A stretch of 25,051 nt of DNA, taken from positions 1 through 25,051 of the IMG/VR virus record IMGVR_UViG_3300038338_000007; one strand, written 5' to 3'. The translations under genes and the position numbers were made by a program. This document shows, piece by piece, positions 75 to 6,539 of this stretch. This DNA is from a virus. The notes under the pieces are model-generated. The model did no database searches and was not told the origin of the DNA. It saw nothing but the letters and a program-made list of their open reading frames with translations. Positions within the stretch are counted from its first letter, which is position 1. Each line of letters opens with the position of its first letter.

Positions 75-151
75 GTTGCCCATAGTCCAGTTGGTTAAGA
101 CACCTGGTTGTGGACCAGGTTACACGGGTTCGAATCCCGTTGGGCAACCCA
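75..151 (+). tRNA. tRNA-His (GTG anticodon)
   Basis: The cloverleaf folds cleanly. The acceptor stem is 76-82 with 141-147, all Watson-Crick. An encoded extra G at 75 pairs with C148, the G-1:C73 pair that marks tRNA-His. The anticodon stem is 103-107 with 115-119 around loop TTGTGGA, giving anticodon GTG at 110-112. The T stem is 124-128 with 136-140 around TTCGAAT. CCA is encoded at 149-151. The D stem has one mismatch. A strong -10 lies directly upstream, so it has its own promoter. A virus-encoded tRNA is the simplest reading; a host tRNA next to an integrated element cannot be excluded. Confidence 0.95.
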
Positions 152-181: not shown

Positions 182-209
182 TTGACCCACCCCAATTTGC
201 TGCTATACT
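182..209 (+). promoter_or_regulatory. Sigma-70-like promoter of the left operon
   Basis: TTGACC (182-187), a 16-base spacer, then TATACT (204-209) preceded by TGC, again an extended -10. It lies about 45 bases before the first protein gene of the operon. The same layout (TTGAC, 16 bases, YATACT) recurs at 1970-1997. Confidence 0.7.
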
Positions 210-837: not shown

Positions 838-1119
838 ATGCTGGCCTGGAAAAGCAACCCAGTAGACCCAATCCAACTCAAGCCAGATTGTTGCTACTTG
901 GCGACAAAGCGCACGAAGTACATCCAACAATGCCCAACCGTACACCTCCTTGATTGCGACTGGGAGCTAAGCCTGTTTGACGAGGGTGGTGTATACTGGT
1001 CTACACAAGACATCGTGTTTTACATTGAAGTACCCACACTGCCCTGCTCTAGAAGTATTGAAGATTACAAAGAGGCCCTACTCGACAAAGAGCTGGATAA
1101 GTGGATCGAGGGTGGCTAA
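838..1119 (+). CDS. Unknown 93-residue early protein
   Basis: The ATG lies two bases after the previous stop; no clear Shine-Dalgarno site is visible, so translation probably depends on coupling. The product is soluble and acidic, with five cysteines (DCCYL, IQQCPT, LDCDW, LPCSR), tryptophan- and tyrosine-rich in the middle, and a charged C-terminal helix (about residues 73-90). No recognisable domain. Its stop overlaps the start of the XRE regulator as TAATG, so the two are expected to be co-translated. Confidence 0.7.
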   Translation: MLAWKSNPVDPIQLKPDCCYLATKRTKYIQQCPTVHLLDCDWELSLFDEGGVYWSTQDIVFYIEVPTLPCSRSIEDYKEALLDKELDKWIEGG

Positions 1120-1331
1120 TGACCTCTCACCATAAAGCATTTGGCAGCAGGTTGGTTCAGGGTCGCAAGCGGTTTGGTTGGACCCAGTGTGAACTTGCCG
1201 CGGTGGCACATGTCCCCCGGGGCAGTGTAGCCAACTGGGAGCAGGGTAGATTGTTTCCCAACATTCCACGGCTGATCAGGTTGGCACAGGTATTGCATGT
1301 AACGGTTGACTGGTTGTTGGGGGTTGAGTGA
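1119..1331 (+). CDS. Cro/CI-type XRE helix-turn-helix regulator
   Basis: A 70-residue protein consisting of one HTH_3 (XRE) domain and nothing else, the size of a Cro-type regulator. The core is the helix pair around residues 22-43, starting TQCELAAVA and running through GSVANWEQG, followed by the family's PNIPRLIRLAQVL and VDWLLG. GAGGGTGG (1108-1115) precedes the ATG. Last gene of the left operon. Directly downstream lie inverted repeats sharing ACTTG, one of which contains the -35 of a promoter for a structured RNA. Control of that promoter, and perhaps of its own operon, is a reasonable inference. Confidence 0.9.
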   Translation: MTSHHKAFGSRLVQGRKRFGWTQCELAAVAHVPRGSVANWEQGRLFPNIPRLIRLAQVLHVTVDWLLGVE

Positions 1332-1347
1332 TGGATAAAATCCACCA

Positions 1348-1447
1348 CACTTGCAAATAAGTGACGTAATAACTTGCCAAAACAGTAAACCCGACCAATT
1401 TAGTCAGGTATGAAAATAAGGCAGTCGACTTGACTTTCCGTTCAAGT
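1348..1447. promoter_or_regulatory. Candidate operator cluster
   Basis: Three inverted repeats are visible. CACTT-N6-AAGTG lies at 1348-1363. CCCGAC-N7-GTCAGG (one mismatch) lies at 1390-1408. ACTTGA-N8-TCAAGT lies at 1428-1447. A further single ACTTG half-site lies at 1372. The last repeat encloses the -35 hexamer TTGACT (1430-1435). The cluster lies between the XRE gene and the promoter of the structured RNA, where autoregulatory phage operators are often found. Binding by the XRE protein is inferred. Confidence 0.45.
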
Positions 1448-1458
1448 TGAGCTAAATA
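1430..1458 (+). promoter_or_regulatory. Promoter for the structured RNA
   Basis: TTGACT (1430-1435), a 17-base spacer and TAAATA (1453-1458). The -35 is strong; the -10 is weak. Transcription would start near 1465, two bases before the first paired base of the RNA's closing stem. The -35 lies within an inverted repeat, suggesting repression by a dimeric protein. Confidence 0.5.
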
Positions 1459-1464
1459 GATAAG

Positions 1465-1624
1465 TAACAACCGTAATGGTTTGCTAGATATGCCGGGAGA
1501 CCGGAGAGCATTTCCTAGCGCTGTGGTAAGACGTCTAGCAGAAGCAGCGTGTGCGACCTGAGTTGGTAGCGGTTGTGCTATAGCGGTGAGACGGCGTTGA
1601 AAGGGTTTTTCAGCGTCGTTTTTT
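1465..1624 (+). ncRNA. Candidate structured RNA, about 160 nt
   Basis: No plausible protein frame is found here, but several perfect helices are. ACAACCG (1467-1473) pairs with CGGTTGT (1570-1576), closing the structure from its extreme 5' end. TGCTAGA (1482-1488) pairs with TCTAGCA (1534-1540). CCGG (1493-1496) pairs with CCGG (1501-1504) around a GAGA tetraloop, a GNRA loop. Smaller hairpins are possible in 1544-1567. A strong intrinsic terminator ends it. A promoter lies just upstream. I do not recognise a known RNA family. Position between a Cro-like gene and a palindrome-rich region suggests a regulatory, immunity or replication-control RNA, all inference. Confidence 0.65.
1591..1624 (+). 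terminator. Intrinsic terminator of the structured RNA
   Basis: A 12-pair stem (1591-1602 with 1608-1619, two G-T pairs) closes a five-base loop and is followed by a run of six Ts (1619-1624). It is a textbook rho-independent terminator on the plus strand. Confidence 0.9.
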
Positions 1625-1969
1625 ATTGCCCCAAACTGTATCAAACTTGCTACACACCTACATTAGAATACTGAACGGATGCGGTGTAGTTGTTTTCTAT
1701 CTATTCCAGTTATTCAGTGTGGGTGTTGGTGGGTGGCATGGTTGTTGCAATTAAGACTCGTTAACGTTAACTCGCGTAGTTAACTACGCGGCGCTTAACC
1801 ACGCGAAGCCAATTCATCTGCACCACCTTAACCCCGTCTGCGACGCCTAAAACCATGCGCCACTCGAATCATTCCTCCTCGTTGCTAAAATCTTAAGTGC
1901 AACCGGAGTGCATGCAAGGAGAAGTGGTCACATAGTCACCCAAACACCTACATGAACAAACTTCCGGTA
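1625..1969. other. Non-coding, palindrome-rich region; possible origin
   Basis: No supportable gene. It holds CTACAC/GTGTAG inverted copies 25 bases apart (about 1652-1688), a GT-rich tract with GGGTGTTGGTGGGTGG (1721-1736) that could form a two-tier G-quadruplex, a perfect 12-base palindrome GTTAACGTTAAC (1760-1771) and a perfect 18-base palindrome CGCGTAGTTAACTACGCG (1773-1790). A direct repeat of TTAACYACGCG (1780-1790, 1795-1805) overlaps the latter. ACACCTACAT occurs twice, near each end of the region. Such density beside early promoters fits a replication origin or multi-site control region. No DnaA boxes or replication gene were identified to prove it. Confidence 0.4.
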
Positions 1970-1997
1970 TTGACAATCCCAGACGTTCTGCCATACT
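1970..1997 (+). promoter_or_regulatory. Sigma-70-like promoter of the second operon
   Basis: Consensus TTGACA (1970-1975), a 16-base spacer and CATACT (1992-1997). It lies about 28 bases before the first start codon of a four-gene operon and has the same architecture as the promoter at 182-209. Confidence 0.7.
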
Positions 1998-2879: not shown

Positions 2880-2915
2880 TTGTTCATTGGAAACTCCTTT
2901 CGTGTTACTTGACTT

Positions 2916-3002
2916 ACCCATCACGAATACCCCAGGGCGCTCTATGGTGACCTCCTCCCGCAATAGTTGTTACGCCCGGTTATTTCGTGATGGGTTTTTT
3001 TT
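2916..3002 (+). terminator. Long two-stage hairpin terminator
   Basis: The outer stem is perfect: 2916-2927 with 2984-2995, 12 pairs. Inside it, CC-A-GGGCG (2932-2939) pairs with CGCCCGG (2973-2979) with one bulged A, enclosing about 33 bases. Eight Ts follow (2995-3002). The enclosed loop is longer than a simple terminator needs, so the structure could also be a stable small RNA or a 3' end element. Confidence 0.85.
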
Positions 3003-3023
3003 ACACAATCTTTTCTCACCCGC

Positions 3024-3121: not shown

Positions 3122-3247
3122 ATGAATCCAAAAGTTGACAATCCAAGTACAAGAAGTAGTGCGGTAGAAGTGTCGGTAAATTATCCCAGCCGATCGGTAG
3201 CCAAGTCCGGTGAATCCGACCCGTCCAGCTTTATCAGGGTTATATGA
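3122..3247 (+). CDS. 41-residue hypothetical peptide
   Basis: The ATG lies about 60 bases downstream of the predicted transcription start, and the stop overlaps the next ATG (ATGA). The upstream GGGAAAAG is too far (about 11 bases) to be a good ribosome site. The product is polar and Ser-rich with no recognisable domain. Support comes from overlap and position only. Confidence 0.35.
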   Translation: MNPKVDNPSTRSSAVEVSVNYPSRSVAKSGESDPSSFIRVI

Positions 3248-3612
3248 AAAGCGCCTGTAAAACCTGCGAATCAAAATGCGCCCACGCCGGGACCAAGAAC
3301 CCGTTTATGAGTGGTGCCAATTCCTGTGTAAGTCACTCTAAGAACAGCCAGGCCAAGAAAGCCAAGGACGAGATAATAGATCGGTGGTTCAACGGTTGGA
3401 AGGTGCCGTTTGTGTTGAACGTTGGGGCCGCAGAGCGTGCAAAAAGATTGAAGAGGGCAATTTGGAGAGCGTTAGACGAACAGCTGGAAAATACTTCAAA
3501 TACCAGTCATGGCCAGTGGGACCACTTCGATATGCTGAAGACGGATCCCGAAGAGCGACGGCGTCTACTTTACGGGAACTGGAACGTGGGAAGTACCTAC
3601 GACGACGAATAA
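3244..3612 (+). CDS. Cys-rich protein overlapping the next gene out of frame
   Basis: A 122-residue frame with AGGG eight bases before the ATG. The N terminus is a compact Cys/His cluster (CKTCESKCAHAG, then NSCVSH), like other small proteins here. A basic helical stretch follows (KKAKDEIIDRWF). The last 25 residues include DPEERRRLLYGNW, which resembles the motor-nuclease linker of large terminases; this virus's own terminase has REALLYGNW. The last 150 bases or more are shared with another long frame that also looks coding. Either both are read, the proteins are joined by a frameshift, or this one is partly fortuitous. Confidence 0.55.
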   Translation: MKSACKTCESKCAHAGTKNPFMSGANSCVSHSKNSQAKKAKDEIIDRWFNGWKVPFVLNVGAAERAKRLKRAIWRALDEQLENTSNTSHGQWDHFDMLKTDPEERRRLLYGNWNVGSTYDDE

Positions 3613-3920
3613 CCTACGATGCAACCAGATACATCCTTCGCCATACGTTTAGTTTCGAGTTTGATGAGCTTCGGGAAGATGCCAAAGAGCTTGTTCGTCA
3701 AGACATGTCTAACCTGCTTGATTTCGGAACATACCAACCGCTTAGTGCGAACTGCCCAGGGTTTGACAAAGAGCGTAAAACAAATCTTATCTGCAAGCTC
3801 ACGGACGATAGGATGAGTCCGATTGAATGGCAATATGAGATACTGAGATACTTGTTTGAACACAACTACAACTGCTGGCTCGATGAGGAGGCGGCGCGAA
3901 AGGAAGAGAATAATGGATAA
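3462..3920 (+). CDS. Winged-helix-like protein, start uncertain
   Basis: This frame is open from 3342. Possible starts are GTG at 3384 (no good ribosome site) and TTG at 3462, preceded by AGAGGG four bases away; I chose the latter (152 residues). Around residues 30-55, DGSRRATASTLRELERGKYL followed by RRRITYDATRYIL has the pattern of a small winged helix, as in phage DNA-binding proteins. The C-terminal half is acidic and helical (SPIEWQYEILRYLFEHNYN). It overlaps the upstream gene by 150 bases or more in another frame, exceptional here, and overlaps the SSB start by eight bases. Confidence 0.55.
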   Translation: MESVRRTAGKYFKYQSWPVGPLRYAEDGSRRATASTLRELERGKYLRRRITYDATRYILRHTFSFEFDELREDAKELVRQDMSNLLDFGTYQPLSANCPGFDKERKTNLICKLTDDRMSPIEWQYEILRYLFEHNYNCWLDEEAARKEENNG

Positions 3921-4309: not shown

Positions 4310-4534
4310 ATGCCAAAACTAATCCTAAAGTATGACATGGAAACAGAGCGTAACCAGGCAAACATTGCGGTTAGCTCAATGGATTACGCCTTGGCCTGGT
4401 CTGAATTGATGGGGTTTGTTCGAGCATGTCTTAAATACAACACCCCCCCGTCAATGGACTATGAAACGGTTGACGTAATACGGCATAAAATGGTTGAACT
4501 AATGGAAGAGTATCGGTTACCGCAACCGGAATAG
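4310..4534 (+). CDS. Conserved phage small acidic protein
   Basis: A 74-residue protein beginning MPKLILKYDMETERNQA, with ALAWSELMGFVRACLKY in the middle and VDVIRHKMVELMEEY at the end. The layout (short strand, E-R pair, helix with W, K-Y, helix with EL) resembles a small protein common near replication genes of tailed phages, of unknown role. No Shine-Dalgarno site within 12 bases of the ATG; GGAG lies 17 bases upstream. A 21-codon frame (4257-4322) ending inside this gene could supply coupling. Confidence 0.75.
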   Translation: MPKLILKYDMETERNQANIAVSSMDYALAWSELMGFVRACLKYNTPPSMDYETVDVIRHKMVELMEEYRLPQPE

Positions 4535-4951
4535 ATGAAACCAAAACAACCAAAACCAAATCCACCCACTGAAGATCAAGAACAGATGCTTCTGGCCGAG
4601 TACCTGAACAACCGGTTTGGGTACCACGGCTGGGTGCATGTGCCAAATCAGAGGTGGGCAAAGGTACATTACCTGAGAAAGCTTAGCAAAATGGGTGTGA
4701 AGAAGGGGTTCCCAGACATACTGATTTTTGGACGGGCTATGATACCATACCCCAAACCATGCAACCGTGGTAAACATCTGGTTGATGGGCTAGCTCTGGA
4801 ACTAAAAAGGCAAAAGGGTAACAGGGCAACTTTAGAGCAAAGAATATGGCTGGCTTGGTTTGGCGAACATAATTGGGCGCAAGCGGTTGCATACGGCGCA
4901 CAAGATGCTATAACAAAGATAGAGGAGGTATACGGAAAATGGACAAAATAA
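4535..4951 (+). CDS. VRR-NUC domain nuclease
   Basis: A 138-residue protein starting directly after the previous stop. It carries the VRR-NUC (PD-(D/E)xK) signature: an acidic N-terminal helix (EDQEQMLLAEYL), KKGFPDILIF with Asp at about 61, LALELKRQKG with Glu 88 and Lys 90, then a Gln (about 101) in the following helix and a last strand with AQAVAYGAQDA. Family members cleave branched or flap DNA; in phages they are stand-alone proteins, often treated as Holliday-junction-resolvase-like. A role in recombination or in resolving replication products before packaging is inferred from SSB nearby. Confidence 0.88.
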   Translation: MKPKQPKPNPPTEDQEQMLLAEYLNNRFGYHGWVHVPNQRWAKVHYLRKLSKMGVKKGFPDILIFGRAMIPYPKPCNRGKHLVDGLALELKRQKGNRATLEQRIWLAWFGEHNWAQAVAYGAQDAITKIEEVYGKWTK

Positions 4952-5142
4952 GAACTGGAGCGATACCAAACTGTCAGTGTCGGGCCAAGGTGGAAGAGTT
5001 AGAGGAGGCCCTACGCTGGTTGGCGTTCCGGGTGTCAGACGCCCTCTGGATCGCCTACGGTGGCAGTGTGGAAGCGTTGTGTATTGGGGCAACGGAACAG
5101 GCTCGTGAGAATATTAATAGGATCAATAACAATAATGAATAA
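4939..5142 (+). CDS. Small helical protein, unknown
   Basis: A 67-residue protein. The ATG at 4939 is chosen because AGGAGG lies about 11 bases upstream and this start gives the 13-base overlap typical of the region. Residues 12-34 (CQCRAKVEELEEALRWLAF) are helical with a coiled-coil look; the C terminus is Asn-rich. Overlaps the lipoprotein start by eight bases. No family recognised. Confidence 0.65.
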   Translation: MDKIRTGAIPNCQCRAKVEELEEALRWLAFRVSDALWIAYGGSVEALCIGATEQARENINRINNNNE

Positions 5143-5602
5143 AAACGCAATAACGTTGATAGTAAGTATTTCGCTATTGTTCGGTGGCTGTGCCGTACCA
5201 ACAGGCGAGGACTATTCCGTAGACTACGAGAATGCTAGAAGGGCGACGATAGAGGCGTGGGAAGAGGTCATCGGGCGGGTGTCAGATAGATGTTACGACA
5301 GGTCGGTAGACGCGATGGTTACCGAGGCCGGCTACTTCCCCGAAAGCTGTATATCACCAACCGGAAACTACGTTGGCTGCTACATGGCGACTGAACACCT
5401 CGGGATAGGGGGCGATATGATATATATACTAGAGACTCGTACGGATAAGCAAAAGCTGGACACCGCGGTCCATGAGTACATCCACTTGTTGGCGACATGC
5501 GAGTTTATTAACCCCGATCCCTTCCATGAAGATAAGCGGTTTTGGGATGACTTCGGGTCCGACACCGTCGAAGCGCACGGGTGTGCGAACCTAAGGCTGT
5601 AG
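5135..5602 (+). CDS. Predicted HExxH metalloprotease-like lipoprotein, copy 1
   Basis: A 155-residue protein. The N terminus is a lipoprotein-type signal: MNKNA, a hydrophobic run, then LLFGG before Cys 19, the predicted lipidated residue. Ala at the next position favours the outer membrane in Gram-negative hosts. HEYIH (113-117) is a zinc metallopeptidase motif, and a His 14 residues after its second His (residue 131, in HEDKRFW) is conserved in the paralogue at 6536, so it could be the third ligand. Four further cysteines are shared (RCYDR, SCIS, GCYM, TCEF), fitting an exported, disulfide-bonded protein. Peptidase activity is inferred. It may act on the host envelope or in superinfection exclusion. 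Ribosome site weak. Confidence 0.85.
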   Translation: MNKNAITLIVSISLLFGGCAVPTGEDYSVDYENARRATIEAWEEVIGRVSDRCYDRSVDAMVTEAGYFPESCISPTGNYVGCYMATEHLGIGGDMIYILETRTDKQKLDTAVHEYIHLLATCEFINPDPFHEDKRFWDDFGSDTVEAHGCANLRL

Positions 5603-5609
5603 GTGCTAA

Positions 5610-5813
5610 GTGAACCATGCTGAATGGCTGCAGTGGTTGATACTAACCATAAGAGCGCACATGAAGCTGGAGTATGGCAACACTGTTCCTCGCAAGGTGT
5701 TGCATGACGCAAGGCGCTATTTGTTGCGTGAGGTAGATGAACTGGACAGAAAACTAGGGAGGAATAGAGATGAAGATAACGAACCAAGCACTAGTAGATG
5801 CGCAGGCGTGTGA
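5610..5813 (+). CDS. 67-residue protein, unknown
   Basis: GTG start with AGGTG four bases upstream, seven bases after the lipoprotein stop. N-terminal half aromatic and hydrophobic (AEWLQWLILTIRAHMKLEY), then a charged helix (LLREVDELDRKLGRNRDEDNE). It may associate with membranes or be a small amphipathic helical protein. It overlaps the first MORN gene by 44 bases in a different frame. No family recognised. Confidence 0.6.
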   Translation: MNHAEWLQWLILTIRAHMKLEYGNTVPRKVLHDARRYLLREVDELDRKLGRNRDEDNEPSTSRCAGV

Positions 5814-6084
5814 GGATCAAGTCGAGCTATTCGAGGCAACGTTTCCGGACGGCGCCACGTGGCCCGACGACATGGAGAAAGCGTCGCGGGCCAAGCTTGA
5901 TGTGCAGTGGGCGATTCGCAAGTTCAAGCTATCGGGTCATTACCGCGAGTGGCACGACAACGGGGAGCTGCGGTGCGACATAACGTACGAGCGCGGCGAG
6001 CTGCACGGTCGTTGCCGCGAGTGGCACGACAACGGGGAGCTGTGGTGCGATGAGATGTGGGAGAACGGGAGGTGGGTGGGATGA
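5770..6084 (+). CDS. MORN/YwqK-repeat protein, two repeats
   Basis: A 104-residue protein. GGGAGGAATAG gives a good ribosome site for the ATG. Residues 1-35 are a short domain with ACEDQVELFEATFPDGATWP, a leader often seen on repeat-containing phage and bacterial proteins. Two MORN_2-type repeats of about 23 residues follow, each with REWHDNGEL and a C-D pair. Such proteins are often labelled YwqK-family antitoxins, but no toxin is apparent, so that label should not be read as function. It is nearly a duplicate of the next gene at DNA level. GC content is clearly higher than in neighbours, suggesting transfer. Confidence 0.85.
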   Translation: MKITNQALVDAQACEDQVELFEATFPDGATWPDDMEKASRAKLDVQWAIRKFKLSGHYREWHDNGELRCDITYERGELHGRCREWHDNGELWCDEMWENGRWVG

Positions 6085-6539
6085 AAATCACGAAGCAAAC
6101 ACTAATAGACGCGAAGGCATGTGAGGATCAAGTCGAGCTATTCGAGGCGACGTTTCCCGATGGCGCCACGTGGCCTGACGATATGGAGAAAGCATCGCGA
6201 ACTGGGCTTGATGTGCCGTGGGCGATTCACAAGTTCAAGCTATCGGGCCGTTACCGCGAGTGGTATACCAACGGGCAACCGTCGCTCGACGAAGCGTACG
6301 AGCGCGGCGAGTTGCACGGTCATTGCCGCAAGTGGCACGCCAACGGGGAGCTGTGGCGCGACGAGATGTGGGAGAACGGGAGGCCACACGGTCGTTTCCG
6401 CGCATGGTACGCCAACGGGGAGCTGCGGTGCGACGCGACGTACGAGCACGGCGCGCGGCACGGTCGTTACCGCGAGTGGCGCGACAACGGGGAGCTGCGG
6501 TGCGACGAGATATGGGAGAACGGGGGGTTGGTGAGATGA
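6081..6539 (+). CDS. MORN/YwqK-repeat protein, four repeats
   Basis: A 152-residue paralogue of the preceding gene, starting on its stop (ATGA) with GGGAGGTGGGTGGG upstream. The N-terminal domain is almost the same (ACEDQVELFEATFPDGATWP), followed by four MORN_2-like repeats (REWYTNGQP, RKWHANGEL, RAWYANGEL, REWRDNGEL) instead of two. Repeat number has therefore changed by internal duplication or loss. Its last codons, WENGG then LVR, provide the ribosome site and ATGA start of the second lipoprotein. Repeat proteins of this kind are usually binding scaffolds; partner unknown. Confidence 0.85.
   Translation: MKITKQTLIDAKACEDQVELFEATFPDGATWPDDMEKASRTGLDVPWAIHKFKLSGRYREWYTNGQPSLDEAYERGELHGHCRKWHANGELWRDEMWENGRPHGRFRAWYANGELRCDATYEHGARHGRYREWRDNGELRCDEIWENGGLVR

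Follow-up and report, generated by a model that had tools for sequence, protein, structure and literature searches.

Gene organization of the left end

The window, by which we mean the whole stretch of DNA that was analysed, is a virus record of 25,051 bases whose left-end genes lie on the plus strand. A tRNA-His gene, small genes and a Cro/CI-like regulator share this end; SSB (Pfam) and a VRR-NUC-like gene (Pfam match under the family cut-off) are also encoded on the plus strand, and the terminase, portal and further structural genes come after them in the same orientation. The regulator is the last gene ahead of the region in which an earlier note had proposed a new structured RNA, at 1465-1624, with its own promoter and terminator. 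The relevant features are as follows.

76-151, plus strand: gene for tRNA-His (anticodon GTG), located in the block that holds the regulator, at its left end
182-209, plus strand: promoter-like site TTGACC-16-TATACT with TG before the -10 (10/12 consensus matches), candidate operon start reading into the region
1119-1331, plus strand: Cro/CI-like helix-turn-helix regulator (Pfam HTH_3, E 2.3e-10; PHROG transcriptional regulators)
1332-1587, plus strand: untranslated stretch of 256 nt from the regulator stop codon to the terminator, with a clearly coding frame on neither strand
1430-1458, plus strand: weak promoter proposed in the earlier note, TTGACT-17-TAAATA (8/12 consensus matches)
1467-1576, plus strand: proposed helix P1 (1467-1473/1570-1576) enclosing P2 (1482-1488/1534-1540) and P3 (1493-1496/1501-1504); pairs verified, body z -0.9 to -1.4
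1520-1584, plus strand: competing long hairpin in the minimum-energy fold, incompatible with P1 and P2
1588-1624, plus strand: predicted intrinsic terminator hairpin with T-run (z -5.61), with a longer stem than any other hairpin-plus-T in the window
1760-1771 and 1773-1790: GTTAACGTTAAC and CGCGTAGTTAACTACGCG, both perfect palindromes, which probably form a cluster of operators or an origin
1970-1997, plus strand: promoter-like site TTGACA-16-CATACT with TG, preceding the next gene block (from 2026)

In tblastn searches of phages, the regulator protein matches 120 records, every one below 60% identity, and the left-arm proteins encoded at 253-555, 841-1116 and 2637-2840 match none. The 256-nt untranslated tail behind the regulator is part of a regulatory gap of 694 nt in which palindromic repeats of operator-like appearance are found. 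A further related half-site lies beside the two palindromes (1755-1805), and 8 of the 22 GTTAA copies in the window fall within 1640-2025; the palindromes at 1760-1790 are likely to be operators or an origin. The surroundings described in the earlier note, with a Cro-like gene before the proposed RNA and palindromes after it, are thus correct. The next gene block (2026-2843) also closes in a hairpin terminator (stem 2916-2995), with 72 nt from its last stop codon (2843) to the start of the stem (2916).

Some other features of the window deserve mention. Two adjacent small genes at 2026-2426 have near-identical DNA ends (LNDCKCYEPE...), a recent partial duplication in which the ribosome site of the next gene is included; viral contigs contain no exact copy of the LNDCKCYEPE-type peptide motif of these neighbours. 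Neighbouring genes at 5770-6539 carry repeated units of the 'REWHDNGELRCD' type, which we take to resemble MORN-like antitoxin repeats. The start of the VRR-NUC-like gene (4531-4680) has an unusually stable RNA fold (z -4.85 for 4561-4680).

The terminator and the stretch ahead of it

The hairpin at 1588-1624 has a folding energy of -18 kcal/mol, and none of 200 shuffles is equally stable. Its core of 12 pairs (1591-1602/1608-1619) becomes 15 pairs once extended into the T-run, and it exceeds all other hairpin-plus-T stems of the window in length when both strands are searched. As in other intrinsic (Rho-independent) terminators, a stable, GC-containing hairpin with a short loop (5 nt) is followed immediately by a T-run; the difference is that the stem at 1588-1624 reaches into the T-run through A-U and G-U pairs, which is probably why a consensus terminator scan did not report it. 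The 12-pair terminator of the earlier note is therefore confirmed. Judged by sequence and stability, 1588-1624 is a real terminator at which stopping of the polymerase is predicted, and very probably the 3' end of a non-coding transcript lies near 1624.

The stretch ahead of the terminator is of a different nature. The helices drawn in the earlier note do exist: P1 and P2 are perfect 7-bp helices with full Watson-Crick pairing, and P3, with 4 bp, closes a GAGA loop. The full stretch 1465-1624 has a z score of -2.70, because the terminator carries the score; without it, z is -0.88 (1465-1586), -1.12 (1465-1582) or -1.39 (1467-1576). An independent second run on 1465-1586 gave -0.89, with 35 of 200 shuffles equally stable. 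The body thus lacks the stability beyond composition that would mark an autonomous structured sRNA. When 832 sliding stretches of 120 nt on the plus strand are compared, the one at 1471 has a z score of -0.66, and the best of the region (1501-1620, z -3.12) includes most of the terminator. The locus illustrates a common trap, in that a strong terminator can make the ordinary sequence ahead of it score as folded. A functional structure is not evidenced by a single-sequence fold, according to Rivas (PMC8250186).

The calculated pairing depends on where the RNA ends. P1 has a pair probability of about 0.01 in the full-length RNA, P2 of about 0.15 and P3 of 0.5-0.9, and the minimum-energy fold uses the competing hairpin 1520-1584 instead of P1 and P2. 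The energies are close, with -57.9 for the minimum as compared to -57.8 with P2 and -56.3 with P1; forcing the helices costs 0.1 (P2), 1.6 (P1) or 2.2 kcal/mol (P1, P2 and P3 together), all within model error. For an RNA ending at 1582, the probabilities become 0.92-0.98 (P1), 0.87-0.91 (P2) and about 0.5 (P3), so the drawn fold could form during transcription. Of 1000 shuffles of 1465-1586, 6 contain two perfect 7-bp helices nested as P1 and P2 are; elsewhere in the window, such a pair is present in 7 of 624 stretches of 122 nt, one of them over the tRNA. The P1/P2/P3 fold is thus possible in the model, chiefly during transcription, yet it is not singled out, and the claim of a multi-branched structured RNA is not borne out by a body that behaves like its shuffles and has two near-equal folds in silico.

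Promoter-like sites

The promoter that was proposed for the RNA is found at chance level, since the plus strand of the window holds 185 combinations of the same 8/12 quality, or 7.4 per kb; a consensus promoter scan does not report 1430-1458 either. TTGACT at 1430 is a good -35 half, and a weak, activated promoter may be present here. Sites that combine 10/12 matches with a TG (extended -10) were found in three scans only at 182 and 1970, each just ahead of one early gene block. Promoter-like sites with a score of at least 9 are no more numerous in the region than in shuffles.

The idea that the promoter is duplicated in an inverted repeat (1455-1471/1689-1705) was rejected: the repeat gives 5 matches at up to 3 mismatches, which 11 of 100 shuffles equal, and no TTGACA-like box is seen ahead of the second copy (1689-1705).

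The motif ACTTG, chosen after looking, has 5 of its 40 sites in the window within 1332-1664, and two sites of this cluster (1349-1650) form an inverted pair that flanks the proposed promoter. It is possible that the cluster represents operators of the Cro-like protein.

Search for known families and relatives

A cmscan of the window against all families of Rfam 15 gives a tRNA as the sole match at gathering score, by which a known RNA family for the proposed RNA is excluded, in agreement with the earlier note, in which none had been recognised. At E values up to 10, the segment 1330-2030 has a single match of 15.6 bits, read as chance, and Rfam gives no match on seven loci of the terminase family. 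With blastn, segment 1100-2000 finds merely five 29-base chance matches in phages, and 1332-2025 finds none in plasmids. A pattern of the RNA core is carried by 33 viral contigs, none of them alike beyond the pattern; the P2-arm pattern is present in at least 120 contigs, and among the matches listed none resembles the proposed RNA.

Relatives of the window were gathered by protein searches with the terminase and the VRR-NUC protein; the family size is a lower bound. The terminase shares 25-30% identity with the known phages that match best; its own syntenic family consists of metagenomic contigs, with about 40-53% identity among the matches listed. The sole close terminase relative among these (L121, 80% identity) begins around the gene at 3244 of the window, and therefore does not include the region of the proposed RNA. 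In another contig (L010, 3628-6084) the terminase gene is broken after the Walker A region by an insert, presumably intein-like.

Single-sequence nhmmer searches with 1420-1660 gave nothing at E values up to 10, both in 62 terminase-family loci and in all 427 loci finally collected (4.65 Mb); in an earlier set of 119 loci, one match (E 3.9) was centred on the pattern with which the contig had been fetched. Of 26 whole records compared by DNA search, three had matches of 14-21 bases, the best with E 0.013 over 18 bases, which we read as chance. A covariance model of the drawn fold (R1), which has a short reach because it consists of one sequence entered twice, found besides the window just L141 in 66 sources (12.4 bits, E 3.5) and L418 in 30 further sources (15.2 bits, E 0.38), both read as chance; in 28 whole records it gave no match with an E value of 1 or below. 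No homologue of the proposed RNA was thus detected in the 427 loci, the 28 whole related records, phages and plasmids.

A candidate folded element in the next gene block

The segment 2910-3003 (plus strand) has a z score of -5.13, and none of 200 shuffles is equally stable. It is a hairpin terminator whose branched loop is closed by a stem of 12 bp, with eight T behind the stem. The apical nine nucleotides of this loop, ACCTCCTCC, resemble an anti-Shine-Dalgarno sequence and pair in silico with the ribosome sites of genes 2423 (-13.6 kcal/mol) and 2241 (-12.7 kcal/mol), both located upstream in the same block; when 41 gene starts are compared, only 8246 scores better (-14.1) than 2423, for a pairing that was noticed after the fact in a single sequence. 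By these calculations, 2910-3003 would be a better-supported candidate for a folded RNA than 1465-1586.

Probable termination of the left operon

We consider it probable that 1588-1624 is the predicted intrinsic terminator of a rightward left-end operon that extends from the tRNA to the Cro-like regulator. Transcription would start from a promoter around 182-209 and proceed through small orphan genes and the regulator gene ending at 1331, and the operon mRNA would read into the terminator. RNA polymerase would then copy both arms of the hairpin, the hairpin would fold and the T-run would free the RNA, which would insulate the left operon from the next one, starting around 1970-1997. The tail between regulator and terminator would have no specific fold of its own.

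The evidence for this consists in the first place of direct observations on the sequence and stability of the terminator (z -5.61, the longest hairpin-plus-T stem), on the shuffle-like body (z -0.88 to -1.39), on the gene order and on the missing coding signal. Across 1332-1630, the six frames score between -0.074 and +0.039 per codon; the regulator gene itself reaches just -0.026, so the coding test is weak for short genes. Its values for the SSB gene, obtained out of frame, and for 3384-3920, 840-1119 and 5140-5602, which begin on or slightly beyond their annotated starts, are left out of account. The location of the two 10/12 TG promoter-like sites just ahead of both gene blocks points in the same direction, and from the hairpin terminator that also ends block 2026-2843 it follows that the phage separates its early blocks in this way. 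Against a plain 3' tail stand its length (256 nt versus 72 nt in the next block), the scarcity of the nested 7-bp pair (6 of 1000 shuffles) and the probability of 0.87-0.98 that P1 and P2 reach in an RNA truncated at 1582. Of the mechanisms considered, simple intrinsic termination of the left operon has the best support, and an sRNA derived from the tail is its main rival.

Such an sRNA would end at the terminator, originate from its own promoter at 1430-1458 or from processing of the operon 3' end, fold as drawn and act in trans on phage or host mRNAs. The long untranslated tail ahead of a very strong terminator would fit with it, as would the presence of P1 and P2 as an uncommon nested pair, the dominance of the drawn fold in the 1465-1582 form and the hint at operators from the ACTTG sites. 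We regard it as unlikely, in view of the body z score of about -0.9, the chance-level promoter, the lack of an Rfam match and the empty homologue search; moreover, the pairing of 1465-1586 with 42 stretches, mostly gene starts, is not above that of shuffles (118 of 200 reach the best value). More doubtful is an elaborate form, in which an orphan phage sRNA of about 160 nt would be made from a regulated promoter beside the Cro-like gene, form P1 and P2 during transcription and then slowly refold to the near-equal long hairpin, acting as a timed two-state regulator without known relatives. In the prophage Gifsy-1, IsrK is an RNA locus with a Rho-independent terminator at which read-through is possible (PMC4825925); the present phage locus shares the terminator, but has no Rfam match and no anti-repressor or AntQ-like gene is seen alongside.

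An improbable explanation is that the region is a cis-acting leader, i.e. a put-like anti-termination RNA or an attenuator, in which the two folds switch read-through of the terminator. Their near-equal energies (-57.9 versus -57.8 with P2 and -56.3 with P1) would suit this, and the put element of HK022, an RNA element by an early phage promoter, provides a precedent, as it suppresses pausing and termination (PMC9378689). The sequence relation to putRNA was examined through Rfam and DNA searches. However, both folds leave the terminator hairpin untouched, and it is intact in every full-length fold, so that no switch is visible; furthermore, the terminator is not followed directly by a gene, the next one starting only at 2026, and near-equal folds also occur in random sequences.

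Antisense or immunity RNAs offer a further comparison. The C4 RNA of P1 is an antisense/immunity RNA comparable to P4 CI and pairs with its own leader. For P4 CI, an antisense-type mechanism with such pairing is described in PMC4825925. An RNA of this kind, forcing termination through its own leader, would agree with the phage setting near a Cro/CI-like gene and with the terminator behind, but no complementary seqA/seqC-like partner and no Rfam match were found here. Instead of the expected leader complementarity, pairing was as good in 63 of 100 shuffles for the upstream flank (1332-1460), in 64 for the downstream flank (1640-2025) and in 50 for the minus strand of the latter. The comparison with P4 CI and P1 C4 drawn in the earlier note is therefore not supported, and the mechanism, to which we attach very little probability, was discarded on the basis of this shuffle-level pairing.

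Copy-control RNA I of the ColE1 type, which requires a primer transcript on the opposite strand, is likewise a short terminated RNA by a possible replication region, but at 1465-2025 a consensus scan gives no minus-strand promoter-like site, and there is no Rfam match. Coding on either strand is the least credible reading and was rejected: both candidate frames are open, but the 122-aa minus-strand ORF (1276-1644) scores -0.033 per codon and has a TTG start and a 5' end inside the terminator, the plus-strand ORF (1490-1561) scores +0.05 across just 23 codons, and inspection by eye showed a ribosome site for neither.

Should the tail give rise to a stable RNA after all, this would represent an orphan regulatory RNA of the phage, next to a regulator of the lysis/lysogeny type. 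In the preferred reading, with 1588-1624 as the terminator of the left operon, the feature would provide a clean terminator and mark the boundary between two early operons in a poorly sampled group of phages.
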